64,000 bases of DNA from Sphingobium sp. EP60837 (GTDB taxonomy: Bacteria; Pseudomonadota; Alphaproteobacteria; Sphingomonadales; Sphingomonadaceae): NCBI RefSeq assembly GCF_001658005.1, contig NZ_CP015986.1, positions 2,419,501 to 2,483,500 of the forward strand, given 5' to 3'. The first letter of the stretch is position 1, and each line of letters starts with the position of its first letter. Of this stretch, positions 11,356-57,255 are shown in pieces. The notes beneath the pieces were generated by a model. The model saw only the letters and a program-made list of their open reading frames with translations, was not told the origin of the DNA and made no database searches. Made by a program: the position numbers and the translations under genes.

Positions 11356-14300
11356 ATGGATTTCGAGCGCGAATGGAATGTCGATGCTGCCGCTGACCGC
11401 CAGCAGGCGCCTGAGCCGGAACTTGCCGCACTCGCCGCGCGGGTAAAAGGCCATCCCATCCAGCCCGGAACGATGCGCACCGTGACGCCTGGTCCGGACG
11501 GCACCGTCGTGCTGCCTGCCGGAACCGACATCAACCACATCGAGGTGGACGGCCGCAACCTGGTCGTCACGCTGCCCGATGGCACGCAGATGGTGATCCT
11601 GGATGGCGCGGTGGTCGTGCCGCGGATCGTCGTGGGTGACGTTGAAATCCCCTCCGTCAACCTGGCCGCCCTGTTGATTGGCGAAGAGCCTCAGCCTGCT
11701 GCCGGTCCGGCGCGCAGTTCTGGCGGCAACTTCCTGGCCGCCGATGGCGAGGTTGGCGATCCCCATGGGTTGGGCGACCTGCTGCCGCCAACGGAATTGT
11801 CATTCAATCAAACCGAAGAGCGCGAGATCCTGCCGATCGCTCCGCTCGAAGATGACGGGCCCGATGGGGAGATCATCACGCCCAATCAGCCGGCCGGCGC
11901 TACCAACGCCACCGCGACGGTGAGCGAGGCTGGCCTGGCCGCGCGGGGCGCGGAGCCAGCTGGGTCTGCCGCAGCCGGTGACAGCGAGCGGACAAGCGGC
12001 ACCATTGTCTTTTCCGCCAATGACGGGCCGTCCGTCGTCACCATTGGCGGCGTGGCCGTCACGAGTGTCGGGCAGACCTTCACCACGTCTTTGGGTGTGC
12101 TGACCATCACCTCCATCGAAGATGGCTCGATCGGTTATAGTTATACGCTGAGCGACAATGTCGTAGGTGGGCCGCCAACCGACGTCTTCACCGTGGTCGT
12201 CACGGATGCGGATGGGGATCAGGCGACAGCAACCCTGAGCATTTCCATCACCGACGATGGCCCGCAAGCTGTCAACGACGCGGACAGCGTGACCGAAGAC
12301 GGCCCGCTGGTTGCAGACGGCAATGTGCTGACAGGCACGGGCGGCAGCGATGCAAACAGCTCGGATGGCGTTGCCGATGTGCAGGGCGCAGATGGCGTCA
12401 CCAGCATCACCACCGGCACTTTCCAGGGTGCCTACGGTACGCTGGTCCTGTCGGCTGGTGGCGGCTACCGCTATGAGCTGGCGAACGGCAATCCGGCAGT
12501 GCAGTTCCTGACGCCGGGCCAGACACTGACCGACAGCTTCAGCTATACCATCACCGATGCAGACGGCAGCGCCTCTTCGGCGACGCTGACCATCACCATA
12601 AATGGGGCGGACGACGGGGTCACCATAACCGGCTTGACCGATGGACCGGGCGCCAATGGCGCAGAGCTGGTCGTACTGGAAAATGATCTGGCGGACGGCA
12701 GCTCGCCCGATGCGGCGGCGCTGACTCAGAGCGGCTCCTTCGCTGTCAGCGGCCCTGATGGCCTGACCAGCGTGACCATGGGTGGCGTGACTGTGCTGGC
12801 CAACGGTGCCTTCGTCGCCGGTCAGGTGGTGACGACGCCGCTTGGCACGCTGACCATCACTGGCTTTACTGCGACCAGCCAGCAGGGCGGTGTGCCGACT
12901 GCGGGAAGCTTCAGCTATACTTTCCTGCTCACCGATAACAGCCTGGGTCATGGCGCTGCTGGTGCGGATAATGTCTTCCAGAGCTTTGACGTGGTTGCCA
13001 CCGATCGCAACGGATCGACCGCAGCGGGGTCGATCGATGTGCAGATCGTCGATGACTTGCCGACGGCGCGTGCGGATGTGGATGGCGTCGCTGCGGGCAG
13101 CTATGGTCCGGAAGGCGGCAACGTCATCAGCGGCGCTGGCACTGTGTCGGGCGCGGCAGGCGCGGACACGCGCGGCGCGGATGATGCCACGGTTGCAGGT
13201 GTCGCCGCAGGGGTGAGTGAAGCCGCGCTGGTGAGCACCTCAACCGTCGGTCAGGGCATCCATGGCCTCTATGGCACGCTGACGCTGAATGGCGACGGCA
13301 GCTACAGCTATGTCCGCGACGCGGGCACGCCGGGCGGCGTCAGCGACAGCTTCACCTACACGCTGCGCGACGGCGATGGCGATCTGAGCGTTGCGACGTT
13401 GCGCATCGACATCGCCGACAGCGACGTCATGATTATCTCCATCCCTCGCATGGGCGAGGGCACGGTTGTGGACGAGGCCGGTTTGGACGCGGGCGTGGGC
13501 GCTGCGCCCGGGTCGAATGCAGGAGCCGATGTCGAGACGACGGCCGGCGTCATCACCTATACCGCGCCGGACGCGCCATCAACGGTCACGATAAACGGCA
13601 TTCCGGTCGTTCAGGCTGGCCAGCAGATTCAGACCGACAAGGGCTATCTGGAGATCATCTCCGTCAGCGAAGGCCGGATTGAATATAGCTATACGCTGAC
13701 AACCAACACTAACAATAGCGGCAGCGAGCCCGTCACCGACAGTTTCGAGGTAACGGTGACCGATGTCGATGGCGACAGCGCCACCGACACGCTGGTCATC
13801 ACTATCCTGGACGATCATCCGACCGCTTTTGCGGACGTGGACTTCGTCAAGGAGGACGGGCCGCTGGTGGCTGACGGCAATGTGCTGACCGGATCGGGCG
13901 GCGACGATGCGAACGCGACCGACGGCGTGGCGGACGTTCAGGGCGCCGATGGCGCGAGCGTCACCGGCATTTCTTTCGGCGGTGTCGCAGGCGTGGTGGG
14001 TCAGGAGGTCAAGGGTGTTTATGGAACGCTGACGATCCTGGAAGATGGGCGCTATTTCTACACGCTCGATAATCAGAATGGGGTGGTCCAAGGGCTGGAT
14101 TCCACCGAGACGCTGACAGAGACCTTCACCTACAGCATCACCGATGGTGATAATGACAGCGCCCAAGCGACGCTGACCATCACGATCGAGGGTAGCGATG
14201 ATGGCGTCACCATCGAAGGGCTGAGCGGCAAGGGTGCCGAACTGACTGTTCGTGAAGACGATCTTCTGAACGGCAGCTCGCCCAATGCGGGCGAACTGAC

Positions 14301-17300
14301 CCAAAGCAACAGCTTCACGCTTACCGCGCCTGATGGGGTAGCCACTGTTACGGTCGGCGGACAGACGATCTTCGCCAATGGTTCGTTCATCGCGGGCGTC
14401 GTCATTTCCAACGCCTATGGCACGCTGAAGATCGACAGCTTCATGCCCACGACCGGGGCCGATGGGGATGTGGTCGGCGGCACCATCAACTACAGCTATG
14501 TGCTGAACGACAACACGCTGCTGCATGCGGGCGCTAACGATGTGAGCCTCACGGACAGCTTCCTGGTGGAGGTGCTGGACACTGACGGATCGCAGGCAAG
14601 CGCCAGCCTGGATGTAGCGGTATTCGATGACGCGCCGGAAGCGCGTGATGACGTCGCGGTGCAGCAGGCGGAAAATGCGGCGGTGCTGATCAATGTCGTG
14701 ACTGGCGAAGGCACTTTGACCGGTGCTGCCGGCGCCGACACGCTTGGCGCGGACGAGGTGAATCTTGCGGTCGGAGGGCAGTTGGTTCTGACTAGCGGGC
14801 CTTCGCAGGGCTCCGCGGTCTATCAGGGCAACGGCGTATTTCTTTATACCCCGGCCGCCGGAGCGATCGGAGAGGACAGCTTCACCTACACCATCACCGA
14901 CGGTGACGGCGACAGTTCCACCGCAACCGTGACCATAACGCTCGCGGGCGATTCGACGCCCGTGGTGCTGGTGGGCGACCTGACGGTTTCCGAAGCGGGC
15001 CTTCCCAACGGTACGCAGTCGGGCGGCAATAGCGAGACCGCCGGTGGCGCGATGACAATCACGACCGGCGGCGATACTTTGACCAAGGTCGAGGTGCAGG
15101 ACAAGAATGGCGTCTGGCAGGATGTGACCGGCGCCACGGTGGGAACGCCGGTGGTAGTGCAGGGCGCGGCTGGCGCTTTGACTGTCACGTCGGACGGTTT
15201 GGGTCATTACAGCTACAGCTACACGCTGGCCGTCAACAATCCCGCGCATCCTGACAACAATGCTTTCGACGGTGACGGCATCAGCGGCGCAGCTGACACG
15301 CTGCCCGGCGATAGCTTTGCCGTCCGCGTGACTGATAGCGACGGTGATGTGTCGCCATCCGCCAGCATCGATGTGACGGTGCAGGATGATGCGCCGATCG
15401 CGGCGGTTGATGGCGACACGACGGTCATTGAGGGCGCGACGGCGACCGGCACCTGGTCGCAGACGATCGGTGCAGATCAACCGGGCGCTTCGACGGTGGT
15501 TGTCGTCGGCGCGAACAGCTATGCGATTGGTACGCCCATCAATACTGGCCTGGGCACGCTGACAGTCAACTCCAACGGCACCTGGGCCTTGGTATCCAAC
15601 AATAATCTGAACAACGCGTCTGATCCGTCGCTGAGCTTCACCGTCAAGGTGACGGACGCCGACAATGACGTGGCGCAGGATACGCAGACGATCTCCATTA
15701 CTGATGGCGCAGGGCCGACCGCTGGCGCTCCGCTGAGCCTGCAAATGGACGACCAGAATCTGGCGAATGGCAGCACGCCTGCCGGAGATGATTTCGCTTC
15801 GGGCAAGATCAGCTTCACCGCGGGATCGGATGCGCTGACGGGCTTTGCCTTCTCGCAGAACCTCAATTCACTCGGTGGTGGACTGACCTGGAACCGGGTG
15901 AGCGCCACGCTGATCGAAGGCTGGGATGGCGGCATTAACACCGGCACCAAGATCATTACGCTGACTCTGACCGCACCCGCGTCGATCGGTGCCGGGTCGA
16001 GCGGCGACGTGACGGTCACCGCAACATTGATCGACAATTATGATAGCCATCCCGTGATCAATCAGGATGATCTGGCCGCACTGGGTAGCGTCGGCGTGAC
16101 TGCCTCCGACCAAGATGGCAGCTCGGCTACCGCGACCGTCAATCTTTCGGTTTCGGATGATATTCCGACCGCGGGTAACGATGGCCAGTTGGCGGTGCTG
16201 GATGACAATGCCACGGCCGTCCTGATTGGGACGGTCGCGGGGTTGACGGGCAATGACAGCTATGGCGCGGACGGGCAGGGCTCTCCGGCGATCGTCATCG
16301 GCACCGGCAGCTTGGGCGGCACTATCTCCATCGTGAACGGAAACCTGCTCTATAGCTCGCACCATAATGTCGCAGCGCCTTATGCGCCGGTCACCGAGAT
16401 CTTCACTTACACGATCAAGGATGGCGACGGGGATACGGCGAGCGCTACCTTCTCGGTCCAGCTGACCGATACTGGGCCGTCAATCAACGCGGCGGCAGCG
16501 TCGTTCACGGTGGACGAGGACGGCCTGGCGAACGGTATCAGCCTGTCTCAGCCGGGCGATGCCCCGGGCGCGGATGTCGTGAAAACCGGGACTTTGGCGA
16601 GCTTCAGCTTCGGCCAGGATGGCCCGGGCGATATCGTGCTCGCATCAGCGAATGATACTGGCCTGCGAACGCTGTCGGGCAATGTCGTGCGCACGGTCTG
16701 GGATCCTTCGACGCATGTCCTTACCGGTGAGGACGCCGTAACGGGCGTTGATGTCTTCACCTTGAAGATCACCGACGTTGAGACAGGCGCCTATCGCTTC
16801 GAACTGCTCGCGCCGATTCAGCACAGCGATCCGGCGAGTGAAGACGACAAGTCGCTGACCATTGCCGTCCAAATCACCGATGCGGAAAATGAAACCGCAA
16901 ATGGATCGATCAGCATCGCCATTGATGACGACCGGCCGATCGTAGCGGATGACAATATCGGAACGAGTGAATCGGCTTCGGCGTCCACCGGAAATGTCCT
17001 TTCCAATGATCTCATCGGTGCGGATCAGCCAGGCAGCGTGGCCAGCGTCAATAACGTAGCCATTGCGGCAGGGGGCAGCCAGATCATCAATGGCAGCTTC
17101 GGCACGCTGACCATCTATTCCAACGGTCAGTATAGCTACACGCCCAAGGCGTCGGTCCCAGCAGGCTCGTTCGACAGCTTCACTTATGTGATGAAGGATG
17201 CCGATGGCGATACAGGCAACGCCGTGCTCAAGTTCACTTTCGCCGGTGACCCCAACCTCCCGACTGCTGGCACGACCGCTGCGACCGTGGACGATGATGG

Positions 17301-20010
17301 CCTGACCGGAGGCAATCCGCTCAGTATCCTGGGCGACGTCAACGCCAATGCTGGCGACGCCGACCCTGCTGCCAATGAGGCCAGCTTCAGCGGAACGCTA
17401 CCCTTCGCCTTCGGTCCGGATGGTGCGGGCAGCGTGACCTTCGCCAACTTAAATGGACAGACCGGCGTAGTGGGTGCGGACACAGTTCTCTACAGCTGGA
17501 ATGGCACTACGAATACGCTCACAGCGACAATCGTCGGCGGCCGGGGCACCGACTTGTTCAAGGTCGCCGTCAATCCCGGGACCGGAGCCTATACGGTCAC
17601 GCTTCTGGACAACGTCCTCCACAGCACGGGAGGAAACGAAAATAATGCGTCTGTGACCTTGAATTATCAGGTGACGGACAGCGACTATAACGCCAGCACC
17701 AATGCAGGTTCGCGGGCGATCGGTCAGCTCGGCATCTCGTTCAACGATGACATGCCGAGCGCCTTCACCCCGGCTGCGGGATCGGTGCAGAACAACGATA
17801 GCCCGGCTACCCTGTTCAACCTGAACTTCGCCAATGTGGCAGGCGCAGATGGCGTGGGTAATGTGCTCTTCAACATTACGGATGGCGCCCCCGCCAAAGA
17901 TACAGGCGGCGCGACGCTGCGGTTGAATGGCGAGGATCTGTTCATCTACGGGAACGGCACCAATGTACTCACAGCCAAGACCGCAGATGGGGACATCGGC
18001 TATACCATCACGCTGCAGCCGGGGACGGACAAATATCTGTTCGACCTGCACGGGACGATCACCAACGGCAGCGAAATCTCGATCAGCAGCTTCAGCGCAG
18101 CGAAGGCAGGCAACACCGATTATCGCGGACTGGGCGTGGATACGACCGACGCCATCGACGTGCTGTTTTCCGGCCGGGGATCTTCGGGTGCGCGGGGCTC
18201 CGTCAACACCGACAGCGATTCGATCGGCATCAACAATCAGTCGGTCAATCCCGATGAGGCGGTGCGCATCGATCTGGTCAAGACGCTGACCAGCAGCGGG
18301 GGGGGCACCACCGGCTTCGCCTATGCCGATCACCAGAGCGTCATCAGTTTCGAACAGAAGATTGCGCAGGTTGGCGGCAATCCCAACAACATGGTGTCGA
18401 TCAAGGTCACGGCCATCGATGCCGATAACGATCAGGATCTAGGCTTCTCATCGACGACCAATGAGGCCGGCGAGTCTTTCGTCGGGATCATCAAGGTGGT
18501 CGTGACCGACGTAAGCACCAATAGCGTCTATACGTTCACACCGGGCGGCCTGAGCACGCAAGGCGCGATCGGCGTCACCTTCTCGTCAACAAGCGTGACC
18601 ATTACCGGCCTTCAGGTGAACGACACATATGAGATTGTCGGCGCCAAAGGCTTCGACGCGGTGCTCGTGGAATCGCCTCATTCCAATAATGATTTCGATC
18701 TTGGCGTATTTTCCGTCGAGACGCTGAACAGCGGCGCGCCAATCAACATCAATCATGCGATCGTCGCGTCGGATGCGGACAACGACAGCGTCAACGCTTC
18801 GGTGAGCGTCACGCTGACGCCAGTCGCGCCGCCTGCGCCGCCTGTCGCGATCGACCTGGACGGGGATGGGTTGGAGTTTGTCGGCCTGTCGGCGGGCGTG
18901 CAGCATGATTATGGCAGCGGCCTCGTCAACACGGCGTGGATGGCGTCCGACGATGGGCTGCTCGCCCATGCGGTCGGCGGGTCCTATGACATCGTCTTCG
19001 CCGACGACGCACAGGGTGCGGCCAGCGATCTGGAAGGGTTGCGCCTTGCTTATGACAGCAATGGCGACGGCGTTTTCGATGCCAAGGATGCGGCCTTCGC
19101 CGAGTTTGGCGTGTGGCAGGATGCAAATGGCAACGGACAGGTCGATGCTGGCGAGTTCAAGTCGCTGACCGACGCCGGGGTCGCCGCCATCGAGCTGACC
19201 TCCAACGGTGTGAGCTATCAGGCCGCAGGCGGCGATGTCACGGTGCTGGGTGAGGCGAGCTTTGTCCGGACTGACGGCAGCAAAGGCACGATTGGCGACG
19301 TCATGTTCGCGACGGCTAAGGCGACCGACGCAAGCAAGACGGCGGATAGCAGCAGCAGTGGCTTCAACCAGGCGCTGGTCGCGGCCAGCCTGGTTGCCGT
19401 CGCAGGTGCCGTCGAAGTGATCGAGCAGGAGCAGGCTCCGGTCATCGACGCAAAGGATGCGCCGCTGACTGAAACGGCTCCGGCGAGCACGACGTCTGTC
19501 GAGGCCGAGACGACGCCGCAGGATAGCGCGCCAACGTCGGTGACTGTGGAGGATCAGCCTTCCCATACGGTCGAACAACCGGTGGAGCAGGGTCACCATG
19601 GCGGCGACGAGGCCGCAACGGACCATGTCACGCTGGCCGATGCAGACGTTGGTCCGGCCCCAATGATGGACAGCGCGGATGCGGCGCAGCCCGATCTTGG
19701 CGATCATCAGGGGCTGCTGGCCCAGTCGATCGATTTGCCCGCCTTCGATGGCAACGCAGCGCTGCTTGCGGTGTCGCATGAGGCGGCTCCGACGGCACTG
19801 GCGGAGGTCGTGAGTGAAGCGCTCGGTGCGGCTGATGCGCCGCATATCGACACGCTGCTCGCGGCGCTGCCGGGCGGCGATCATGCGCCGGTCATGCTCA
19901 ATCCTGTCGCGGCCGAACCGATCGACAGCGGCCATATGGCGGCGGCTGCAGCGGCGATCTTCGAGGCGGCGATCGCTGCGCACGAAGCGATGGCCGTGGC
20001 CCATGGCTGA
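11356..20010 (+). CDS. Giant LapA-type VCBS/Ig-repeat adhesin secreted by type I system
   Basis: A 2,884-residue surface protein. The ATG at 11356 (MDFEREW) has GGATGGA just upstream; the frame could extend 8 codons to 11332, which lacks a ribosome site. Residues 1-112 form a beta-rich N-terminal module (GTVVLPAGTDINHIEVDG, then MVILDGAVVVPRIVV). PAAG follows at 114-117, where LapA-type adhesins carry the TAAG/PAAG site cut by LapG. Then come about 15 VCBS/T1SS-143-like repeats with the hallmark DSFTYTITDGDGDSSTATV. From about residue 2496 a Ca-binding module carries IDLDGDGLEF, DSNGDGVFD (2567) and DANGNGQVDAGEF (2589). The last 240 residues are Ala/acid-rich. No classical GGxGxDxxx RTX nonapeptides are visible. 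The tolC/ABC/HlyD genes and a LapG-type protease are neighbours. Confidence 0.9.
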   Translation: MDFEREWNVDAAADRQQAPEPELAALAARVKGHPIQPGTMRTVTPGPDGTVVLPAGTDINHIEVDGRNLVVTLPDGTQMVILDGAVVVPRIVVGDVEIPSVNLAALLIGEEPQPAAGPARSSGGNFLAADGEVGDPHGLGDLLPPTELSFNQTEEREILPIAPLEDDGPDGEIITPNQPAGATNATATVSEAGLAARGAEPAGSAAAGDSERTSGTIVFSANDGPSVVTIGGVAVTSVGQTFTTSLGVLTITSIEDGSIGYSYTLSDNVVGGPPTDVFTVVVTDADGDQATATLSISITDDGPQAVNDADSVTEDGPLVADGNVLTGTGGSDANSSDGVADVQGADGVTSITTGTFQGAYGTLVLSAGGGYRYELANGNPAVQFLTPGQTLTDSFSYTITDADGSASSATLTITINGADDGVTITGLTDGPGANGAELVVLENDLADGSSPDAAALTQSGSFAVSGPDGLTSVTMGGVTVLANGAFVAGQVVTTPLGTLTITGFTATSQQGGVPTAGSFSYTFLLTDNSLGHGAAGADNVFQSFDVVATDRNGSTAAGSIDVQIVDDLPTARADVDGVAAGSYGPEGGNVISGAGTVSGAAGADTRGADDATVAGVAAGVSEAALVSTSTVGQGIHGLYGTLTLNGDGSYSYVRDAGTPGGVSDSFTYTLRDGDGDLSVATLRIDIADSDVMIISIPRMGEGTVVDEAGLDAGVGAAPGSNAGADVETTAGVITYTAPDAPSTVTINGIPVVQAGQQIQTDKGYLEIISVSEGRIEYSYTLTTNTNNSGSEPVTDSFEVTVTDVDGDSATDTLVITILDDHPTAFADVDFVKEDGPLVADGNVLTGSGGDDANATDGVADVQGADGASVTGISFGGVAGVVGQEVKGVYGTLTILEDGRYFYTLDNQNGVVQGLDSTETLTETFTYSITDGDNDSAQATLTITIEGSDDGVTIEGLSGKGAELTVREDDLLNGSSPNAGELTQSNSFTLTAPDGVATVTVGGQTIFANGSFIAGVVISNAYGTLKIDSFMPTTGADGDVVGGTINYSYVLNDNTLLHAGANDVSLTDSFLVEVLDTDGSQASASLDVAVFDDAPEARDDVAVQQAENAAVLINVVTGEGTLTGAAGADTLGADEVNLAVGGQLVLTSGPSQGSAVYQGNGVFLYTPAAGAIGEDSFTYTITDGDGDSSTATVTITLAGDSTPVVLVGDLTVSEAGLPNGTQSGGNSETAGGAMTITTGGDTLTKVEVQDKNGVWQDVTGATVGTPVVVQGAAGALTVTSDGLGHYSYSYTLAVNNPAHPDNNAFDGDGISGAADTLPGDSFAVRVTDSDGDVSPSASIDVTVQDDAPIAAVDGDTTVIEGATATGTWSQTIGADQPGASTVVVVGANSYAIGTPINTGLGTLTVNSNGTWALVSNNNLNNASDPSLSFTVKVTDADNDVAQDTQTISITDGAGPTAGAPLSLQMDDQNLANGSTPAGDDFASGKISFTAGSDALTGFAFSQNLNSLGGGLTWNRVSATLIEGWDGGINTGTKIITLTLTAPASIGAGSSGDVTVTATLIDNYDSHPVINQDDLAALGSVGVTASDQDGSSATATVNLSVSDDIPTAGNDGQLAVLDDNATAVLIGTVAGLTGNDSYGADGQGSPAIVIGTGSLGGTISIVNGNLLYSSHHNVAAPYAPVTEIFTYTIKDGDGDTASATFSVQLTDTGPSINAAAASFTVDEDGLANGISLSQPGDAPGADVVKTGTLASFSFGQDGPGDIVLASANDTGLRTLSGNVVRTVWDPSTHVLTGEDAVTGVDVFTLKITDVETGAYRFELLAPIQHSDPASEDDKSLTIAVQITDAENETANGSISIAIDDDRPIVADDNIGTSESASASTGNVLSNDLIGADQPGSVASVNNVAIAAGGSQIINGSFGTLTIYSNGQYSYTPKASVPAGSFDSFTYVMKDADGDTGNAVLKFTFAGDPNLPTAGTTAATVDDDGLTGGNPLSILGDVNANAGDADPAANEASFSGTLPFAFGPDGAGSVTFANLNGQTGVVGADTVLYSWNGTTNTLTATIVGGRGTDLFKVAVNPGTGAYTVTLLDNVLHSTGGNENNASVTLNYQVTDSDYNASTNAGSRAIGQLGISFNDDMPSAFTPAAGSVQNNDSPATLFNLNFANVAGADGVGNVLFNITDGAPAKDTGGATLRLNGEDLFIYGNGTNVLTAKTADGDIGYTITLQPGTDKYLFDLHGTITNGSEISISSFSAAKAGNTDYRGLGVDTTDAIDVLFSGRGSSGARGSVNTDSDSIGINNQSVNPDEAVRIDLVKTLTSSGGGTTGFAYADHQSVISFEQKIAQVGGNPNNMVSIKVTAIDADNDQDLGFSSTTNEAGESFVGIIKVVVTDVSTNSVYTFTPGGLSTQGAIGVTFSSTSVTITGLQVNDTYEIVGAKGFDAVLVESPHSNNDFDLGVFSVETLNSGAPININHAIVASDADNDSVNASVSVTLTPVAPPAPPVAIDLDGDGLEFVGLSAGVQHDYGSGLVNTAWMASDDGLLAHAVGGSYDIVFADDAQGAASDLEGLRLAYDSNGDGVFDAKDAAFAEFGVWQDANGNGQVDAGEFKSLTDAGVAAIELTSNGVSYQAAGGDVTVLGEASFVRTDGSKGTIGDVMFATAKATDASKTADSSSSGFNQALVAASLVAVAGAVEVIEQEQAPVIDAKDAPLTETAPASTTSVEAETTPQDSAPTSVTVEDQPSHTVEQPVEQGHHGGDEAATDHVTLADADVGPAPMMDSADAAQPDLGDHQGLLAQSIDLPAFDGNAALLAVSHEAAPTALAEVVSEALGAADAPHIDTLLAALPGGDHAPVMLNPVAAEPIDSGHMAAAAAAIFEAAIAAHEAMAVAHG
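12271..13087 (+). repeat. Adhesin internal duplication, copy 1
   Basis: About 270 codons that recur with an offset of about 1,557 bases. The start is marked by EDGPLVADGNVLTG (from 12295), then GVADVQGADG, the DGVTITGL step, DLADGSSPDAAALTQSGSF and a terminal VDDLPTARADVDG. The copies still align at the base level (for example GACGGCAATGTGCTGAC in both), indicating tandem-type duplication of a two-domain unit. Confidence 0.75.
13828..14657 (+). repeat. Adhesin internal duplication, copy 2
   Basis: The second copy of the two-domain unit, with EDGPLVADGNVLTGSGGDD, GVADVQGADG, DDGVTIEGLSG, DLLNGSSPNAGELTQSNSF and FDDAPEARDDVA. It diverges from copy 1 mainly in loops, so the duplication is not recent. 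Confidence 0.75.
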
Positions 20011-20065
20011 TGAGCGAACAAAACAATTCAGGGACTCTCGCGGGGACAAAATGGGGAGATTGACG

Positions 20066-20773
20066 ATGACGAACGGGGTGGGAAGGATTGCCTCCTTCGG
20101 CCTGCTGGTAGGGATGATGTCGAGCGCCGCCTGGGCTGCGCCTGCCTCGCCCCTGCTGCAACTGAGCAAGCCGGAACTGAGGGATGCGCTGCGGAGCCGT
20201 TACGACACGGCGGTCGCGGCGGTGGGGGACGCCAGCGTGCGCACTTCGCAGGACAGCCGCTGGACTTGGGCGGTCGAAGCCAAGAACCAGTGCGGCATCG
20301 CCATCGGTTTCATCAAATCCGGCACTAGGGATGCGGACAGCATCAACAAGTGCGACGACTTTGTGGCACGCCTTTCGGCGCCGCCACCGCCGCCGGTGTC
20401 GGCCGCAGGTTCAGCCCCACCCGCGCTGGACTGCACGGCACCGGCGGTGTCCATCTTCTTCGACTGGAATATGGACACGCCCCTGCCGGAGGGCGCCGCT
20501 ACGGTAGGTCAGTTGACGCAATCGGCCGCTCAGTGCGGCTGGAAGCGCTTTGGCGTCACCGGTTACACCGATACGTCGGGCAGCAATCGCTATAATGACG
20601 GGCTGTCGCTTCGCCGTGCTCAGAATGTCGCGGGACTGCTGGGCCAGGGCGGCATCGCGGCGGATGCCATCACCGCCCGCGGCTTGGGCGAAACCCAGCT
20701 GAAGATCGAAACCGCCGATGGCGTGCGCGAGCCGATGAATCGCCGCGTCGAAATCACAGCCAGCGCGAATTAA
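20066..20773 (+). CDS. Exported OmpA-domain protein of the adhesin secretion operon
   Basis: A 235-residue protein with a signal peptide (RIASFGLLVGMMSSAAWAAP). A Cys-containing helical region (about residues 30-115) and a proline linker (PPPPPVSAAGSAPP) follow, then a C-terminal OmpA/MotB peptidoglycan-binding domain (about 130-235). The latter has FFDWNMDTPLPEGAA, GYTDTSGSNRYNDGLSLRRAQNV and GLGE, and NRRVEI at the end. The ATG at 20066 has GGGGAG 7 bases upstream; an ATG at 20051 is possible. It probably tethers the secretion or adhesin complex to the cell wall. OmpA-like genes also occur in the Shewanella bpf adhesin cluster. It begins 56 bases after the adhesin and ends 14 bases before tolC. 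Confidence 0.85.
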   Translation: MTNGVGRIASFGLLVGMMSSAAWAAPASPLLQLSKPELRDALRSRYDTAVAAVGDASVRTSQDSRWTWAVEAKNQCGIAIGFIKSGTRDADSINKCDDFVARLSAPPPPPVSAAGSAPPALDCTAPAVSIFFDWNMDTPLPEGAATVGQLTQSAAQCGWKRFGVTGYTDTSGSNRYNDGLSLRRAQNVAGLLGQGGIAADAITARGLGETQLKIETADGVREPMNRRVEITASAN

Positions 20774-20787
20774 GGGGGGAGGCGAAC

Positions 20788-22182
20788 ATGACATTGATGC
20801 GCAAGACATGCGGCAGCCTGATCGCCCTTTGTGTGGCGACGATGGCGGGGACGAGTTGGGCCCAGACCACGGACCTGAAAAGCGCAATCGCTGCGGCGAT
20901 CGACAGCCATCCGGAAATCAACCAGGCGATCCAGAATAAGGAAGCCATCGAATTTGAGCGCGAGCAGGCCAAGGGGCTCTATCTGCCGCGCGTCAGCATC
21001 GAAGGGTCGGCGGGCGTTCGGCGGCTGGAAAACGCCACGCGCCGCGCAATCGGCATTGAGGACCAGACGCTCTGGCCGCTTGAGGCGGGGCTGGTAGCGG
21101 AAGAGACCCTTTTTGACTCGGGCTATCGCAGCGCGGAGAAGCGGCGCCAGGCGGCCCGGATCGACGGCGCCGCACTGCGGGTGGGCGAGCGATCGCAGTT
21201 CGTGGCGCTGAACGTTACACGGCAATATCTGGACTATATGCTCCAGCAGCGGGTGGTCGCGGCCGCAGAGGACAATATCGCCTTCCACCGCAAATTGCTG
21301 GGCGATCTGGGCGAAGGCGTCAGCAAGGGTTCGATCAGCATTGCTGACCAGCAGCAGGCCGAGGAGCGGCTTCAGGCAGCCTTGGTCCGCAAGAGCGAGG
21401 CAGAGCAGGACCTGACCAATGCGGCAATCAGCTTTCGGACGCTGACTGGCCTGTCGATCGATCAGGTGAGCATGCCCGATCCGGTCACGAGCGCTGTGCC
21501 GCCGACTTTGGACGAGGCCATCGCGGCTGCGCGCACCCATAATCCACTCATCCGGGAAGCCGAGGCCGATATTCAGGCCGCCCATGCGGTGGTGGATGAA
21601 GCCAAGTCAGAGCTTGGGCCGACGGTGACGCTGGAAGGGCGTGGCCGAGTGGGTGAAGATGTCGATGGCTTCAAGGGCAGCACCAACGACGTGCAGGGCC
21701 GGGTGGTCGTGCGCTGGCAGCTGTTCAACGGCGGCATCAACCGGGCGAAGGTGCAGGAAATGACCCGCCGGGCGAGCGAAGCACGATTTCGCCTGAGCCA
21801 GCGTCAACGCGAGGCGGAAGATGATGTCCGCACTGCGTGGAATCGCTGGGACACGGAAAAGAAGCGCCTGACCGACCTGTCGCGTCAGGGCACCGTGTCG
21901 GACTCGCTGCTGGTCTCCTATCGCGAGCAGTTCAATGTCGGACGGCGTTCGCTGCTGGACGTGCTGGACAGCCAGAACACACGGTTCAACACGCAGGTTC
22001 GCGGCGAAACGGCGCGCTTCTCCGAAATCTTCGCGCAATATCAGATCCTCGCCGCGACCAATCAGTTGCTCGACACGCTGGGGATCGCGCAGCCTTCGGG
22101 CGCAAATCCTTATGCGCGTAAGAAATATGATGTTCCGGACCTGCCGCCTGCCGAATTGCAACGTCGGCGCTATCCGGGCTGA
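20788..22182 (+). CDS. TolC-family outer membrane channel (LapE-like)
   Basis: A 464-residue outer membrane efflux protein, the exit duct of the type I secretion system. A signal peptide (LIALCVATMAGTSWAQ) precedes two OEP repeats. The first contains DLKSAIAAAIDSHPEINQAIQNKEA and LYLPRVSIEGSAGVRRLEN, the second TLDEAIAAARTHNPLIREAEADIQAAHAVVDEAKSELGPTV. WQLFNGGINRAKVQEMTRRASEARFRL leads into the long periplasmic helices. The C-terminal extension (YARKKYDVPDLPPAELQRR) is short and charged. It starts 14 bases after the OmpA-domain gene behind AAGGGGGGAGG and lies in the same operon as the ABC transporter. Confidence 0.93.
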   Translation: MTLMRKTCGSLIALCVATMAGTSWAQTTDLKSAIAAAIDSHPEINQAIQNKEAIEFEREQAKGLYLPRVSIEGSAGVRRLENATRRAIGIEDQTLWPLEAGLVAEETLFDSGYRSAEKRRQAARIDGAALRVGERSQFVALNVTRQYLDYMLQQRVVAAAEDNIAFHRKLLGDLGEGVSKGSISIADQQQAEERLQAALVRKSEAEQDLTNAAISFRTLTGLSIDQVSMPDPVTSAVPPTLDEAIAAARTHNPLIREAEADIQAAHAVVDEAKSELGPTVTLEGRGRVGEDVDGFKGSTNDVQGRVVVRWQLFNGGINRAKVQEMTRRASEARFRLSQRQREAEDDVRTAWNRWDTEKKRLTDLSRQGTVSDSLLVSYREQFNVGRRSLLDVLDSQNTRFNTQVRGETARFSEIFAQYQILAATNQLLDTLGIAQPSGANPYARKKYDVPDLPPAELQRRRYPG

Positions 22183-22189
22183 GTATCCA

Positions 22190-22226
22190 TCTTTGGGGTC
22201 ATTCCGGCGCAAGCCGGGATGGCGCG
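22190..22226 (+). repeat. Dispersed intergenic palindromic repeat fragment
   Basis: Between tolC and the ABC gene the sequence TCATTCCGGCGCAAGCCGGGATG forms an imperfect hairpin. Read on the minus strand it encodes the IPACAGMT-like peptide often produced by REP-like repeats in proteobacterial spacers. It may act as an mRNA stabiliser or attenuator within the operon. Confidence 0.5.
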
Positions 22227-22235
22227 GGGTAAACA

Positions 22236-24395
22236 ATGTTGGAACGAAGCACGCTTAGCTTGGCCGAATGGCTGAGCCATCAAGGCACGCCCGGCGATGA
22301 GCTGGTCGATTGCATCGCCCATGTGGCGCGGCATTTCGACCGATCGCCGGGGGTCGTGGGGCTCCGCGCGGGGCTGGCGGTCGATGAATCGGGGCGCTTG
22401 CCCTTTCATCAGGCGGAATCGGCTCTCGATCAGATCGGGTTGCTGACGGACCATGTTCGGGGCCGGTTGGACAAGTGGCGGCCGGGCAATCTGCCTGCCA
22501 TCCTGCCGCTGCGGAATGACCGTTTTCTGCTGCTGCTGGACGTGCGCCAGGGGGATGCACTGGTGCAGCTGCCCCATGCGCCCGAGCCCGTTTGGGCGGC
22601 GATCAGCGACCTCGACGGCCATTTTACCGGCGAAGCGCTGGTGGTCATGGCCGACCATGGCCGAGAGCGGGCTGAAGAACGTCCTTGGGACGAGCGGGCG
22701 CGGCAGCATTGGTTCTGGCGCGAGGTGTGGCGGGCGAGGGGCTCCTTCGGATATGTGATGCTCGCAGCCGCGATCATCAACCTGCTCGCCTTTGCGCTGC
22801 CCCTGTTCACGATGAACGTCTATGACCGGATAATCCCGAACAAGGCGGCGTCCAGCCTTTGGGTGTTGGGCGTTGGCGTGATGCTGGCCTTCAGCCTCGA
22901 CTTCGCCCTGCGACTGGCGCGTGCAAGGCTTGTCGATGAGGCAGGGCGCGAAATTGACGAACGCCTGTCGCAACGCCTGTTCGAAAAGGTGATGAATGTG
23001 CCGCTGGCGAGTCGTGCGGGCAGCACGGGGGCGTTGGCGCGGCGCGTGTCCGAATTTGAATCGGTACGGGAATTCTTCACGTCCACCACCGTCGTTTTGG
23101 CGATCGACGTGCTGTTCCTGTTCTTCTTCGTCGGGATCATTGCGCTGCTGGGCGGCTGGCTGGCCGTCGTACCAGTCGTGATGATGGGGATCATGGCGGC
23201 CGCTGGGTTCTTTCTGCAGCGGTCGATGGCCCGGCTGTCGCGCGACGCCCAAGCCGACGCCAGCCTGCAGAATGCGGCCCTGGTCGAAGCGATCGGGGGC
23301 ATCGAGACGCTGAAGGCTTGCCGCGCTGAAGGGCGCGTACTCGAGCGCTGGCGGCGTTATGCGCGGATGAGCGCGGCGACGCAGGAGAAGCTGCGGCGGT
23401 TGAGTTCGACGAGCGTCACTCTGGCCGCGCTGTGCCAGCAGGTGACGAGCATCGCACTGGTGATCGGCGGCTTCTACATGTTTGCGGCGGGCAGTATTTC
23501 GATGGGCGCAATCATCGCCATCGTCATGCTGGCTGGTCGGTCGCTCTCGCCAGTGGGGCAGCTTGCCTTCGTGATCGTCCGGGCGCGGCAGGCCATGACC
23601 ACGCTTGGTAGCCTGCAGACGCTGATTGATCAGCCGGACGAGCGGCTCGACGGCGCACGCGGCATCATCCCCAAGATCCGGAAGGGAGCGATCGTTGCCA
23701 AGGATCTGGAGTTCGCCTATCCGGGAGCAAGCCAGCCGAGCCTTCGCGGCATCAACCTGAAGGTCGAACCCGGGGAGCGGATCGGGATTATCGGCCGGGT
23801 AGCGTCTGGAAAATCGACGCTGGGCCGAGTGATCTGTGGCCTTTACCCGCCAGCGGGCGGCGTGCTGACCATCGATGACATCGACAGCCGCCAATATCAT
23901 CCGCACGAGTTGCGCTCCGCCTTCCGGTATGTGGGACAGGATGCCGAGTTGTTCAGCGGATCGGTGCGGGAGAACCTGCTGCTCGGCGCACGCGAGGCTG
24001 ATGATGCGAAGCTGCTTGAAGCACTGGAACGTTCCGGCGCGTCCCGCTTCTTTGGTCGCGACGCCGCCGGTTTCGACCTGCATATCGGCGAGCGCGGCAA
24101 CCGCCTTTCAGGTGGGCAGCGCAGCTTCCTCGTACTGGCGCGAGCCTTGGTCGAACCGGCCAAGCTGCTGTTTCTGGACGAGCCGACGGGGGCGATGGAC
24201 AATCAGACCGAAAATCTGTTCATCGATCATCTGGAAAAGGCGCTGGAGCCCCAACAGACGCTGATCGTCTCCACGCATCGTCACGCATTGCTGCGGATCG
24301 TCGATCGGTTGATCGTGATCGATCAGGGTGTCGTGCTGGCAGACGGGCCGCGTGACGAGATCATCGGCCATCTTCAGCGCGGAGCCGGGCAATGA
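22236..24395 (+). CDS. Type I secretion ABC transporter with C39-like domain (LapB-like)
   Basis: A 719-residue membrane ATPase that drives adhesin export. Residues 1-150 resemble the C39-peptidase-like domain of RTX/LapB exporters without a catalytic Cys (LPAILPLRNDRFLLLLDVRQGD). The six-helix transmembrane domain spans about 165-460 (YVMLAAAIINLLAFALPLFTMNVYDRIIPN at its start). The nucleotide-binding domain has Walker A GRVASGKST, Q-loop YVGQDAELFSGSVRENLL, signature LSGGQRS, Walker B KLLFLDEPTGAMD and the H-loop STHRH. The gene follows tolC by 53 bases and overlaps the SleB gene by 4 bases (ATGA). Confidence 0.93.
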   Translation: MLERSTLSLAEWLSHQGTPGDELVDCIAHVARHFDRSPGVVGLRAGLAVDESGRLPFHQAESALDQIGLLTDHVRGRLDKWRPGNLPAILPLRNDRFLLLLDVRQGDALVQLPHAPEPVWAAISDLDGHFTGEALVVMADHGRERAEERPWDERARQHWFWREVWRARGSFGYVMLAAAIINLLAFALPLFTMNVYDRIIPNKAASSLWVLGVGVMLAFSLDFALRLARARLVDEAGREIDERLSQRLFEKVMNVPLASRAGSTGALARRVSEFESVREFFTSTTVVLAIDVLFLFFFVGIIALLGGWLAVVPVVMMGIMAAAGFFLQRSMARLSRDAQADASLQNAALVEAIGGIETLKACRAEGRVLERWRRYARMSAATQEKLRRLSSTSVTLAALCQQVTSIALVIGGFYMFAAGSISMGAIIAIVMLAGRSLSPVGQLAFVIVRARQAMTTLGSLQTLIDQPDERLDGARGIIPKIRKGAIVAKDLEFAYPGASQPSLRGINLKVEPGERIGIIGRVASGKSTLGRVICGLYPPAGGVLTIDDIDSRQYHPHELRSAFRYVGQDAELFSGSVRENLLLGAREADDAKLLEALERSGASRFFGRDAAGFDLHIGERGNRLSGGQRSFLVLARALVEPAKLLFLDEPTGAMDNQTENLFIDHLEKALEPQQTLIVSTHRHALLRIVDRLIVIDQGVVLADGPRDEIIGHLQRGAGQ

Positions 24396-25378
24396 GCGCG
24401 CTCGTTCGCAGCGTGGGTATGGCAGCGCCGGTAGCGCTTGCGGTCACGATGGCGGCATATTGGCACGGAGGTCAGCCGCGTCCGGCGGTACAGGCAAAGA
24501 TCATGGAGGCCGCTCCAGCGATTCCCGGTAAATATCTGGCGCTGGTTGCCATGACCGAGAAGGTTGATTCGGCAGCGGAAGGTGAGAAGGCGCGGGAGGA
24601 AAATCAGCGTCTTGGTTTTGCTGGGGGCGATATCGCTGCGGCCAAGCCATTCCGCGCTCTGGGGGGAGCGGGTGAGGATCATGATCGCGCGCTGCAATGT
24701 CTTACGCAGGCCATTTATTATGAAGCTGCGCATGAGCCCGAAAGTGGCCAGCGGGCCGTCGCCCAAGTTGTGCTGAACCGCGTGCGCCACCCCGCCTTCG
24801 CCAAGACGGTGTGCGGCGTGGTGTATCAGCGGTTCGACGCTGCCGTTTGCCAGTTTAGCTTCGTGTGCGACGGCTCGCTCGCGCGGCGGCCGTCGCCGGC
24901 CCTCTGGGACCGGGCGAAGCGGATCGCCACGGATGCGCTGGGAGGGCGGGTAGAGAAAGACGTCGGCACCGCGACCCACTATCATGCCGATTATGTTTTT
25001 CCGCGCTGGGCGCCCCATCTGGCGAAGCTGATTCAGATCGGCGCGCATATCTTCTACCGCTGGCCGGGCGGGTGGGGCCAGCCGAGCGCCTTTTCGGGGC
25101 GGTATGCGGGGGGCGAAAACATTCCGGCATTTGATCCGTCGCGGTACGCCGCTGCGCCTGCGTCCGTGATCGATTATCCCCCGGTCGCTGCCCTTACGGA
25201 GCGGCGCGCGGTCAATGATGTCGGGGGGCGAATGGACCCGACCAAAGGGTGGAAGCTATCGATTGCCGATCCTTCGCCGAGCGGCGGCGCATTGGGCGAT
25301 ATGCTCGCCCGCCAGGAAAAGGTCGCGCCGATCACGCTGGCCGCTGACGACCATAATATCCAAGGGGTGCAACCATGA
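24392..25378 (+). CDS. SleB-family cell wall hydrolase inside the secretion operon
   Basis: A 328-residue protein with an N-terminal signal anchor (VGMAAPVALAVTMAAYW) and a Hydrolase_2/SleB domain at about residues 105-245. The latter shows LTQAIYYEAAHEPESGQRAVAQVVLNRV with the conserved Glu, then VCGVVYQ, CQFSFVCDG, THYHADYVFPRWAP and GAHIFYRWPG. SleB-type enzymes cut peptidoglycan glycan strands (muramidase or transglycosylase activity). The gene is coupled at both ends: ATGA overlap with the ABC exporter and again with the HlyD adaptor. A role in opening the cell wall for assembly of the secretion or adhesin complex is inferred; it is not a standard part of type I systems. Confidence 0.88.
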   Translation: MSALVRSVGMAAPVALAVTMAAYWHGGQPRPAVQAKIMEAAPAIPGKYLALVAMTEKVDSAAEGEKAREENQRLGFAGGDIAAAKPFRALGGAGEDHDRALQCLTQAIYYEAAHEPESGQRAVAQVVLNRVRHPAFAKTVCGVVYQRFDAAVCQFSFVCDGSLARRPSPALWDRAKRIATDALGGRVEKDVGTATHYHADYVFPRWAPHLAKLIQIGAHIFYRWPGGWGQPSAFSGRYAGGENIPAFDPSRYAAAPASVIDYPPVAALTERRAVNDVGGRMDPTKGWKLSIADPSPSGGALGDMLARQEKVAPITLAADDHNIQGVQP

Positions 25379-26649
25379 TTTCGCGCTGGATCAACTGGCT
25401 GCGAGGGCAACCGGGCAACAAGCAGGTCATTCTTTACAGCGGCGGCGGCATGCTGGTCTTCTTGATGTGGGCCAGCCTGGCACCCGTCGATGAGGTGACG
25501 CATGGGCAGGGGCGGGTGATCCCGTCCAGCAAGGCGCAGGTCATCCAGTCCGCTGAACCGACGACGATCGAGGAAATCCTTGTCCGATCGGGCCAGAAGG
25601 TGAGCAAGGGACAGCTTCTGGTGCGCCTGGACGACGCCATGCTGGCATCGGAACTGGGGCAGCTTCAGGCCGAAACCCGCTCGTTGACGGCGCGGGCGGG
25701 TCGGCTGGAGAAGGAGGGCACCGGCGCGGGTGCGGCTTGCATGACAGGCGGACCTGAATGCCAGCAGGAACAGGCGCTGGCCGACGTGCGGCAGTCGGCA
25801 TTGCGGAGCAAGCAGGACGCCATGTCGGCGCAGGTTGAGCAGCGCCGACGTGAGCTGGGCGAAGCGCAGGCGACGATCGCGAGTCTTTCCGGCAGCGTAC
25901 AATTAGCGCGGCAACGCGTGTCGATGCTGGAGCCTCTGGCAGCGAAATCGATTATCCCGCAGACAGAATTGCTCGACGCCCGGCGAGAGCTGGTGGATGC
26001 GCAGGGACGGTTGAACGCGGCGCAGCAACAGGCTTCGCGTGCCTCCGCGGCCATCCGCGAGGCGCAGGCGCAACTATCCGAAGCCAATTTCCAGTTTCGC
26101 CAGGATGCACTTAACGAACGCAGCCAGTTGGAAGCAAAGATCGCGGTGAACAGTGAATCGCTGCGGGGCGCCAAGGGGCGGGCGCAGCGGGCGGAAATTC
26201 GCTCTCCGGTCGATGGTGTCGTGAATGACGTTCAGGTGACGACCATTGGCGGCTTCGTCAGTCCGGGGCAGAAGATCATGCAGATCGTGCCGGTGGGCGA
26301 CAAGTTGCTGGTCGAAGCGCGGGTAAAGCCCAATGACATCGCCTTCATCAAGACCGGCGACCGCGCCGTGGTGAAAGTCACCGCCTACGACTTTTCCATC
26401 TATGGTGGGCTGACCGGCACGGTGCAGCAGGTGTCGGCCGACAGCGTCTATGATGAAGCGACGCGTGAAGCCTATTTCACCGTGGTCGTAGAAACGGATC
26501 GGGCCTGGTTGGGCTCGGGCGCGCACAAGCTGCCGATCACGCCGGGCATGGTGTGCGACGTGGAGATACTGACCGGCCGGAAGTCGGTGCTGGCCTATCT
26601 GCTCAAGCCGATTATGAAGGCGCGGTCGGAGGCATTGCGGGAAAGGTGA
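25375..26649 (+). CDS. HlyD-family membrane fusion protein (LapC-like)
   Basis: A 424-residue periplasmic adaptor linking the ABC exporter to TolC. A short cytoplasmic N-terminus precedes one transmembrane helix (VILYSGGGMLVFLMWASLAP, about residues 18-37). Then come the biotinyl/lipoyl half-motif (VIPSSKAQVIQSAEPTTIEEILVRSGQKVSKGQLLVRLDD), a long coiled-coil hairpin (about 90-260) with two Cys (CMTGGPEC), and the beta-barrel (IRSPVDGVVNDVQVTTIGGFVSPGQ, GDRAVVKVTAYDFSIYGGLTGTV). PGMVCDVEILTGRKSVLAYLLKPI near the end is typical of HlyD/LapC. It overlaps the SleB gene by 4 bases and closes the operon. Confidence 0.93.
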   Translation: MISRWINWLRGQPGNKQVILYSGGGMLVFLMWASLAPVDEVTHGQGRVIPSSKAQVIQSAEPTTIEEILVRSGQKVSKGQLLVRLDDAMLASELGQLQAETRSLTARAGRLEKEGTGAGAACMTGGPECQQEQALADVRQSALRSKQDAMSAQVEQRRRELGEAQATIASLSGSVQLARQRVSMLEPLAAKSIIPQTELLDARRELVDAQGRLNAAQQQASRASAAIREAQAQLSEANFQFRQDALNERSQLEAKIAVNSESLRGAKGRAQRAEIRSPVDGVVNDVQVTTIGGFVSPGQKIMQIVPVGDKLLVEARVKPNDIAFIKTGDRAVVKVTAYDFSIYGGLTGTVQQVSADSVYDEATREAYFTVVVETDRAWLGSGAHKLPITPGMVCDVEILTGRKSVLAYLLKPIMKARSEALRER

Positions 26650-26712
26650 TCACCCCGCCCTTCGCCGTGCGCTTGCCATTCGACAGGCTCAGGGCACTAA
26701 GGCGGCGAACAG

Positions 26713-27768
26713 TCAGCGTGCGGCGAACTGCACCGGCTGCGGCTTGGTCACGCGGTAACCGTGTGTCCAACGGCCATAGGCGTTAAAGCTCAGGATTGGC
26801 CGGTAATCGCTGACCTGCGACGAAGGGAGCACCTTGTCAGTCATATTGTCCAGGATCATGAGTTCATTGCCGATCCGCACTGCCAGCACCGCATGATCAG
26901 CCTGGCGCGCTAAATCGCGGGCAATGACGAGGAACATGGCGCGGCGATCGAAGCCAACCGCTTCGAGCAGCTTCATCTTGGCGATGGCATAATCTTCGCA
27001 ATCGCCCGCGCCGCGGAGCAGTGACTGGTTGGCCGGTGCCCAGCTGTCACCACCCTGTCGATCATCAATGAAGCGCAGCCGCTGGTTGACCCAGCGGTTG
27101 ATCATCTCGATCTGCTGTTGCCCGCCCGCGGCCTGCGCGGTGTGGAGGATGTTGCCCCACAGGCCCTTGCGGGTCAGAGGCTGCGATATCGAAGCCCATT
27201 TGCCGTCGAGCACCGTATGTCCGATCGGCAGCGCGACCGATCCGAATATATCGGGCTGACCCATGCGCGGCGCAGGCTGGTCGGAGAGCGGAGTCGGCCG
27301 TATTGATGTCAGGAAAGCAGTGGGACGCGGCCCCGGTGTCGGCACGAGGCCGCGCATGAAGGCTGGCGTCAGATCGCGCTGGCGGTAGTCGAGACCGGCG
27401 ACGGCTATTGAGAGTTGTACGCCCTCCAATCGCCAGCCGGGCAGCTTGCCGAGGAAGTCGCTAATTCGCCGGTCATTCATGACCGCCGCCGGGGTGGGCG
27501 ACACGCGGATGAATGTGGCGGGCACCGCACCACCCTGCTGCGCGCTGATCGCCGCAAGGCGGCTCATGCCTCCAGCCAAAAGATTTGCCGAGTTGCGGTC
27601 GGAGGGGGAGTAGTTAGCCTGGCTCTGGCCTGCATAAGGCGTAGCCGGCAGGGTCAGAGGAGCCTGGGCGCTGGCATGACCGCTCGCGCCCGCCAGCAGC
27701 AGCGCCGGGGCAACCAGCAGGGCGGAGGTGCGAAGGAATGGGACGAAGCCTGACATGCTTCGCACCAT
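26713..27768 (-). CDS. lapG: LapG-type periplasmic cysteine protease (BTLCP/DUF920)
   Basis: A 351-residue transglutaminase-like cysteine peptidase with a signal peptide (ALLVAPALLLAGASGHASAQA). The catalytic triad can be placed at Cys257 (GAGDCEDYAIAKMKL), His292 (ADHAVLAVRIG) and Asp307 (MILDNMTD). The 35- and 15-residue spacing is close to LapG. Known LapG cleaves LapA-type adhesins near their N-terminus to release them from the surface when c-di-GMP falls. The first 190 residues are longer than in Pseudomonas LapG and lack a known domain. It converges on the secretion operon with a 63-base gap. The symbol is by function; orthology is inferred. Confidence 0.88.
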   Translation of the reverse strand: MVRSMSGFVPFLRTSALLVAPALLLAGASGHASAQAPLTLPATPYAGQSQANYSPSDRNSANLLAGGMSRLAAISAQQGGAVPATFIRVSPTPAAVMNDRRISDFLGKLPGWRLEGVQLSIAVAGLDYRQRDLTPAFMRGLVPTPGPRPTAFLTSIRPTPLSDQPAPRMGQPDIFGSVALPIGHTVLDGKWASISQPLTRKGLWGNILHTAQAAGGQQQIEMINRWVNQRLRFIDDRQGGDSWAPANQSLLRGAGDCEDYAIAKMKLLEAVGFDRRAMFLVIARDLARQADHAVLAVRIGNELMILDNMTDKVLPSSQVSDYRPILSFNAYGRWTHGYRVTKPQPVQFAAR

Positions 27769-31610: not shown

Positions 31611-31736
31611 TCAAGTCAATCCTGCCATCACAGGCACCACTTGCGTGATCAGGAACAGCAGTCCTGCCGCGATCACCCAATGTTGGAGGCGGGGAAAGGC
31701 GGGCCCGTCCCGCCTTTCCTCCGGCAATGTAGCCAT
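31611..31736 (-). CDS. Small single-pass membrane protein coupled to ugd
   Basis: A 41-codon frame beginning MATLPEERRDGP, with one hydrophobic helix near the C-terminus (HWVIAAGLLFLITQVVPVMAGL). Its ATG shares a base with the ugd stop codon (TGATG), and AAGGGC lies about 10 bases upstream within the ugd end, so translation by re-initiation is plausible. The charged N-terminus followed by a C-terminal helix fits a small membrane protein, possibly a modulator of polysaccharide synthesis. No family was recognised. Confidence 0.5.
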   Translation of the reverse strand: MATLPEERRDGPAFPRLQHWVIAAGLLFLITQVVPVMAGLT

Positions 31737-33052: not shown

Positions 33053-33213
33053 AAAACTACCCGCAGCCTCGCTGGAAAAATGAAAGGTTGACGCGGCCCT
33101 AGCATAGGTCATTGCGCGTGCGAAAGCGCGCGTCGGAATTACCCCTATGTTCAGGGGATGGTTACGATTTGCTGGCAGGGGGTAGCCTTAAAGGCTCGCA
33201 TCAGGGGGCAAAG

Positions 33214-34359: not shown

Positions 34360-34511
34360 ACCGAAGCCCTCGCTTGTAAGCGGGATTGCTCCGCACCTGC
34401 ATTTTGCACTGCCGCCTTCGCGTCCATCCGAAGAATGGAAAGCCGTTACCAAAATCTTCAGCATTTCCTTGCAGAAACTGGCGGCAAATCATCGGCTTCC
34501 AGGATCATTGC

Positions 34512-35807: not shown

Positions 35808-35881
35808 CAGAGTAGGGCCCCGTCCAAACTGGTTTGCCCGTAGTTGCCATGACCTTTCTGCCTCGTTAACCCCGCGCAAGG

Positions 35882-35901
35882 TGTCCGCCGCTTGGCGGAC
35901 A
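35882..35901 (+). promoter_or_regulatory. Perfect hairpin in the leader of the polysaccharide export operon
   Basis: TGTCCGCC and GGCGGACA form a perfect 8-base stem with a GCTT loop, 31 bases before the export lipoprotein start. There is no following T-run, so it is not a normal terminator. A leader regulatory structure or protein site is possible. Confidence 0.45.
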
Positions 35902-35932
35902 GCCTGAAAAGCGTGGGGAATTTAGAGCGGAC

Positions 35933-57203: not shown

Positions 57204-57255
57204 CCCGAGAGGTTGAAAAAGCCGGCGCATTATCCCATATGCGTCGGTGCCGGGT

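Follow-up and report, generated by a model that had tools for sequence, protein, structure and literature searches.

A probable Lap-type releasable adhesin system of sphingomonads without a recognisable LapD

The DNA analysed here, hereafter the window, is a 64-kb stretch of the genome of Sphingobium sp. EP60837 (NZ_CP015986.1, positions 2,419,501-2,483,500, forward strand), and the coordinates given below are those of the window. It harbours a giant adhesin gene, a type I secretion operon and a protease gene, which we consider, with a probability of about 0.78, to form a sphingomonad Lap-type releasable adhesin system devoid of a recognisable LapD. The locus combines a retention module, a PAAG site, a secretion set and a LapG-like protease of the BTLCP family, and its assignment as a Lap-type unit is supported. 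What is new is a sphingomonad variant that lacks a recognisable LapD and has a cell wall hydrolase embedded in its operon. A preliminary description of this DNA had suspected a distinct sphingomonad variant, a suggestion that is supported. None of 36 genomes of the family, the source genome among them, gave a match to the LapD N-domain (PF16448) at E 0.001. Inside-out signalling by cyclic di-GMP (c-di-GMP) via LapD has its textbook case in the release of giant adhesins, and the sphingomonad family matters in biofilms, at roots and in the breakdown of pollutants. A widespread pair of protease and likely substrate without a findable receptor raises the question of which other factors could restrain a protease of this kind. 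No published description of the sphingomonad locus was found in our literature search, and most of its close named homologues belong to Sphingobium.

The main survey, in which 347 genomes of the Sphingomonadales were searched for the adhesin module and for BTLCPs, revealed the module in 82 of them (source genome included), all in Sphingobium's own family, and a BTLCP in 143. Every one of the 82 module genomes also codes for a BTLCP (Fisher 1.3e-40, uncorrected for kinship). An earlier sample of 118 genomes, with the source genome counted in, contained 16 with the module; PF06035 was present in 16/16 of these versus 2 of the 20 searched among the 102 module-less ones. With regard to linkage, the protease lies at most 30 kb downstream of the module on the same contig in 54 of the 82 genomes, and on the opposite strand in all 54; in one of these (G760), just 861 bases separate it from a short adhesin frame. 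Module and protease share a contig at a greater distance in 8 genomes, seven of which have the module in a short frame (597-1818 aa) near a contig end and the protease nearer the opposite end, a pattern suggestive of an assembly break within the adhesin gene. They are found on different contigs in the other 20.

All 12 relatives of the earlier sample that were fetched uncut share the order adhesin-(OmpA)-TolC-ABC-hydrolase-HlyD-protease, which is also seen in G102, spread over two contigs; G066 and G088, split at contig ends, are outside this count. The hydrolase gene is located between those of the ABC transporter and the HlyD adaptor in 19/19 relatives' stretches showing both, and tblastn detected an OmpA gene in 9 of these 19. 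A remnant of the locus was observed in G072 (L056:12037-18788), where two transposase genes are followed by a short ABC remnant and where the hydrolase, HlyD and protease genes are retained; neither an adhesin nor a TolC match was obtained in this remnant.

In the adhesin, the preliminary description had placed PAAG at residues 114-117, and this position was confirmed with the start at 11356 (it becomes 122-125 from 11332). The homologues of the adhesin N-terminus numbered 169, and among the best 120 of these the site reads PAAG in 116 and PASG in 4. The former figure comprises 103 sequences counted directly and 13 rows read by eye; a recount gave 115 PAAG and 4 PASG, the remaining row, which lacks the anchor, having PAAG on separate reading. 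In a sample of 40 of the 82 module genomes, the site is PAAG in 34 (two of them outside the script pattern and read separately), PEAG in 3, and PASG, PAGG and a PPAG-like sequence in one each. It is this conservation across homologues that leads us to accept the motif as real. PAAG is the LapG site reported for V. cholerae FrhA (PMC6890996), and LapA is described as being cleaved after residue 108 (PMC3032545 / PMC6890996). By analogy, the equivalent cut in the Sphingobium adhesin would fall after residue 115, in keeping with the earlier remark that the site lies close to its position in Pseudomonas LapA.

The adhesin, 2892 aa long when counted from the first ATG at 11332, scores 252.6 bits against NF045619 (BapA/Bap/LapF family), above the cut-off of 180. 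The start at 11356, ahead of which GGGATGGAAAG stands, is favoured over 11332 because it is supported by the Shine-Dalgarno-like GGATGGAAAG and because the N-termini of several relatives read MDF, MDSF, MTDY or similar; on both grounds, the start adopted in the preliminary description was the right choice.

An AlphaFold2 model of the N-terminal module, built on 40 aligned sequences, has a mean predicted local distance difference test score (pLDDT) of 76.9. Strands are found at model residues 18-76, with pLDDT blocks of 91-95 over residues 21-80; the PAAG block (model residues 91-100) averages 62 and has no structure. The predicted order is a beta-domain, a short helix and an unstructured site, and an order of beta-domain, targeting helix and scissile motif has been described for LapA- and DvhA-type adhesins (PMC13090378). 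Among the 40 members, 31 match the NCBIfam BapA prefix-like domain NF033677 at E <=5 (best 4.8e-5), and 14 match the Pfam BapA prefix domain PF22783 (best E 0.0011). The module of the window scores below both cut-offs (18.9 versus 35 bits and 12.9 versus 27 bits, respectively) and is not counted as a BapA prefix member for this reason; the DP turn of the consensus reads EP in it. A relationship to the BapA prefix-like domain, short of membership under the curated cut-off, is possible. The earlier view that the module does not resemble the Pseudomonas retention module holds for the sequence as far as tested, although the module does show the faint BapA prefix resemblance and the predicted layout of known retention modules. 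As a separate observation, a distant alphaproteobacterial adhesin at the start of locus L084 (G508) has, as read by eye, a BapA-prefix-like sequence followed by a DP...PAAGPGAGGDGGGANF site, and is possibly a bridge between the sphingomonad module and the usual kind.

The protease gene is convergent with the adhesin operon. The triad Cys257, His292 and Asp307 named in the preliminary description was confirmed, with numbering from 27768. Many close homologues begin with MSGF, and a start at 27756 is preferred on this ground; the protein would then probably have 347 aa, with the triad at 253/288/303. In an alignment of 55 homologues, Asp256, Cys257, Glu258, Asp259 and Asp307 never vary, and His292 is present in 54/55. 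The AlphaFold2 model places the catalytic domain at about residues 170-345, mostly with pLDDT >90, behind some 165 mostly disordered residues, and the N-terminus reads by eye as a cleavable signal peptide. The top six Foldseek matches of the model are all LapG chains (4fgq/4u65/4fgo, E 1.6e-10 to 5.4e-10), and the sequence-based PDB matches are 4u65 and 4fgo. A short motif, SRLxxIRxQQ (residues 69-78), is conserved within the otherwise variable disordered part and represents a possible partner-binding site.

Table 1. Features of the adhesin locus and its surroundings (window coordinates), with the cysteine-less paralogues of other genomes in the last row.
Feature	Position	Strand	Evidence
Giant T1SS-143/Big/VCBS-repeat adhesin	11356..20010 (frame open from ATG 11332)	+	Open reading frame and profile matches
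N-terminal beta-domain of predicted retention module	11473..11649	+	AlphaFold2 strands; BapA-prefix-like below cut-off
Short helix SVNLAALL, candidate targeting helix	11653..11676	+	H78-85 in AlphaFold2 model
PAAG, predicted scissile bond between the two alanines	11695..11706	+	Conservation in homologues
SSGGNF after PAAG	11716-11733	+	Same or near variant follows the site in homologues
OmpA-family protein	20051..20773 (20051 likely, 20003 possible start)	+	PF00691 44.7 bits
TolC-family outer membrane channel, LapE-like	20788..22182	+	TIGR01844 217 bits (cut-off 225); PF02321 149 bits
LssB-type type I secretion ABC transporter, LapB-like	22236..24395	+	TIGR03375 762 bits (cut-off 693)
Cell wall hydrolase	24392..25378	+	PF07486 94.8 bits (cut-off 27)
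HlyD-family adaptor, LapC-like	25375..26649	+	TIGR01843 375.7 bits (cut-off 208.65)
LapG-like BTLCP protease	26713..27768, start probably 27756	-	PF06035 61.4 bits (cut-off 27)
Gyrase-B-type gene, read as parE	Next to protease gene, on the side away from the operon		
LysR gene and TPR gene	Upstream of adhesin		
Polysaccharide export cluster	31736-38757, beyond parE, beginning about 4 kb from protease		
Alphaproteobacterial tmRNA gene, ordinary	57209-57553		
Cysteine-less BTLCP paralogues	L100-L109 = G098, G571, G088, G596, G667, G625, G092, G638, G730, G719		

The secretion operon had been described as a TolC/ABC/HlyD set; all three components were recovered, together with the OmpA-family and cell wall hydrolase genes that had been missed. 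The TolC protein stays under the TIGR01844 cut-off and scores well above that of PF02321. The hydrolase gene overlaps those of the ABC transporter (24392-24395) and of the adaptor (25375-25378) by 4 bases each, which is taken as a sign of translational coupling. As to how the unit may work, we infer anchoring, cleavage, release, the role of the hydrolase and each regulatory step as follows. The type I secretion machine would export the adhesin C-terminus first, as is typical of this adhesin class, and the small N-terminal beta-domain would stay in the periplasm, plug the TolC channel and keep the adhesin at the cell surface. The BTLCP, predicted to be calcium-dependent by its conserved Asp-Cys-Glu site, would dock on the helix preceding the cleavage site and cut between the two alanines of PAAG, whereupon the adhesin would slip out; conservation and analogy speak strongly for both events. 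The cell wall hydrolase may open the peptidoglycan for this trans-envelope machine. In three genomes of a sister genus labelled g13 (L006, L009 and L017), an extra repeat-like stretch lies ahead of the module in the same open frame, and would add bulk to a periplasmic plug.

The preliminary description had called the Lap locus complete, which is not borne out, as neither LapD nor an HD-GYP protein that might act as DvhD was found. The best PF16448 match in the source genome has an E of 0.07 (14.7 bits versus a cut-off of 25). The search is judged to work because 63 of 199 genomes of the phylum match; the alphaproteobacterial matches (13 genomes) are weak, with a best E of 3.4e-10, and there are none in 14 control genomes. 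None of the 8 EAL proteins of the source genome appeared LapD-shaped in a simple hydropathy scan. The HD-GYP profile PF13487 gave 0 matches in the source genome and matches in 4/14 control genomes, and no c-di-GMP receptor domain was detected among the scanned neighbours (10 and 9 in two scans); a response regulator and histidine kinases, the latter at 3965-5698 and 44581-45963, are among these neighbours.

Since no LapD or HD-GYP receptor was found, control of the protease by dosage, calcium or access, or by another inhibitor, has to be considered. In V. cholerae, LapG without LapD is reported to cut constitutively (PMC6890996). We give almost even odds to the Sphingobium protease being limited by its own amount, calcium and substrate access, and hold a still unrecognised inhibitor to be plausible at somewhat less than even odds. 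A periplasmic or membrane partner might have escaped recognition and replace LapD, so that release would be switched as in Pseudomonas via a different receptor, which we regard as a tentative but serious alternative. It has a precedent in DvhD, described as an unrelated receptor replacing LapD in Desulfovibrio (PMC13090378), and can draw on the cysteine-less BTLCP paralogues described below. The lack of receptor domains among the scanned neighbours and of HD-GYP in the source genome argues against such a partner, as does the distribution of HD-GYP, present in 4/16 module versus 11/20 module-less genomes. The source genome, furthermore, has a single BTLCP. Elsewhere in the sphingomonad family, a DvhG/DvhD-like pair was noticed in the module-less genome G045 (L057:10470-13181), where a BTLCP adjoins a divergent protein of 643 aa that contains HD-GYP and matches dCache below threshold.

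In g13, a BTLCP paralogue without the catalytic cysteine is present in 10 of the 20 genomes listed with a BTLCP, and all 20 carry the adhesin module. The cysteine is replaced by Ser (5 paralogues) or Ala (2) in seven that retain His and Asp, and by Asp, Met or Glu in three others that show further losses. The paralogues of G730 and G719 lie just upstream of the active protease, at about 0.6 kb and on the same strand (L130:6433-8738 and L131:6147-8441). As the 30 loci examined were chosen by similarity to a cysteine-less paralogue, their proportion cannot be extended beyond g13; a match could be read in 29 of them, and additional copies may have escaped detection. These sequences suggest a possible guard function, in which the paralogue would occupy the site or an activator and thereby shield the adhesin. 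A broader proposal, namely, a release switch free of both LapD and DvhD, with a pseudoprotease guard in g13, another partner or dosage elsewhere, and the hydrolase as a required assembly part, appears rather unlikely. If true, it would constitute a third mode of protease control beside LapD and DvhD.

Taken alone, the motif is only suggestive statistically: [TAP]AAG occurs 5 times across the adhesin, where shuffling gives a mean of 1.6, and when the N-terminal 180 residues were shuffled 5000 times, 1.7% of the results had one at 90-140. Several observations weigh against a retained adhesin released by this protease. Six of the 40 sampled modules lack PAAG, yet their genomes retain a BTLCP. Comparison of the module model with PDB structures gave no confident match to a solved fold, whether of the LapA/MpIBP-type retention kind or another. 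The protease reaches 86.2 bits against the NCBI LapG equivalog NF045674, short of the cut-off of 320, and is named LapG-like for that reason. BTLCPs are also present in 61/265 module-less genomes of the order, from which we conclude that the family has other uses. In G610, a real exception, module and protease are far apart on one contig; in G653, from Sphingobium's genus, the TPR gene and parE flank the protease gene (L143:7909-12878) with the operon absent there, and the module sits on another contig. Lastly, a polysaccharide export cluster coding for UDP-glucose dehydrogenases, a UDP-GlcNAc epimerase, a Wza-like protein and a Wzz-like kinase is found near the protease, and polysaccharide genes adjoin it in the same-genus G678 and G699.

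The BTLCPs without a module, the protease of G653 that stays by parE, and the polysaccharide genes fit an alternative in which the substrate of the BTLCP is a different one and the adhesin operon adjoins its gene only by chance. The model would be HvyA of Caulobacter, described as a BTLCP that requires its triad, restrains capsulation and is encoded in a capsule export locus (PMC4241560). This alternative nevertheless appears improbable in view of the co-occurrence in 82/82 genomes, the convergent order in many genera and the conserved LapG-type site in the neighbouring adhesin. Moreover, the polysaccharide proteins of the window have no match in the other fetched stretches, most of which hold only 1.3-4 kb past the active protease (L061, L130, L131, L137, L139 and L142 reach 6-12 kb). 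Release of the adhesin by the protease is retained as the preferred explanation, with slightly lowered confidence, since the linkage to the adhesin is far broader than that to polysaccharide genes. It is similarly improbable that we are dealing with a secreted matrix protein of the BapA-like kind, whose N-terminal domain is no anchor and whose cleavage merely trims it, since, despite the weak prefix-like match of most members, the helix, the conserved cleavage block and the linked protease are features of retained adhesins.

Compared with the LapA-LapG-LapD system of P. fluorescens, the Sphingobium locus shares a giant adhesin of the type I secretion class with a module ending in an AAG site at a near-equal distance from the start, an LssB-type ABC/HlyD/TolC machinery, and a BTLCP with the Cys, His and Asp triad and the calcium-site residues. 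It differs in that no LapD was found, that its module matches no named retention family, that its protease has a long disordered N-terminal part, and that a hydrolase gene lies inside the operon; Pseudomonas lap operons are not known to include a cell wall hydrolase. The DvhA-DvhG-DvhD system of Desulfovibrio, as described, likewise has a compact beta-domain, a short helix and the site close together, and the N-terminal linker of its protease, too, is long and disordered (PMC13090378). In contrast, no HD-GYP receptor was found in the Sphingobium genome, and the D. vulgaris protein is reported to have a transmembrane helix where that of Sphingobium has a signal-peptide-like N-terminus (PMC13090378). 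HvyA resembles the Sphingobium enzyme in being an alphaproteobacterial BTLCP of the periplasm and in its kind of triad, and polysaccharide export genes are found about 4-11 kb from the Sphingobium protease; however, HvyA is encoded within its capsule export locus, whereas the direct neighbours of the Sphingobium protease are the adhesin operon and the gyrase-B-type gene. Finally, membership of the BapA/Bap/LapF family is shared at the level of NF045619, together with a prefix-like N-terminal domain by weak match, but in Sphingobium this below-cut-off domain is followed by a conserved protease site and accompanied by a linked protease.

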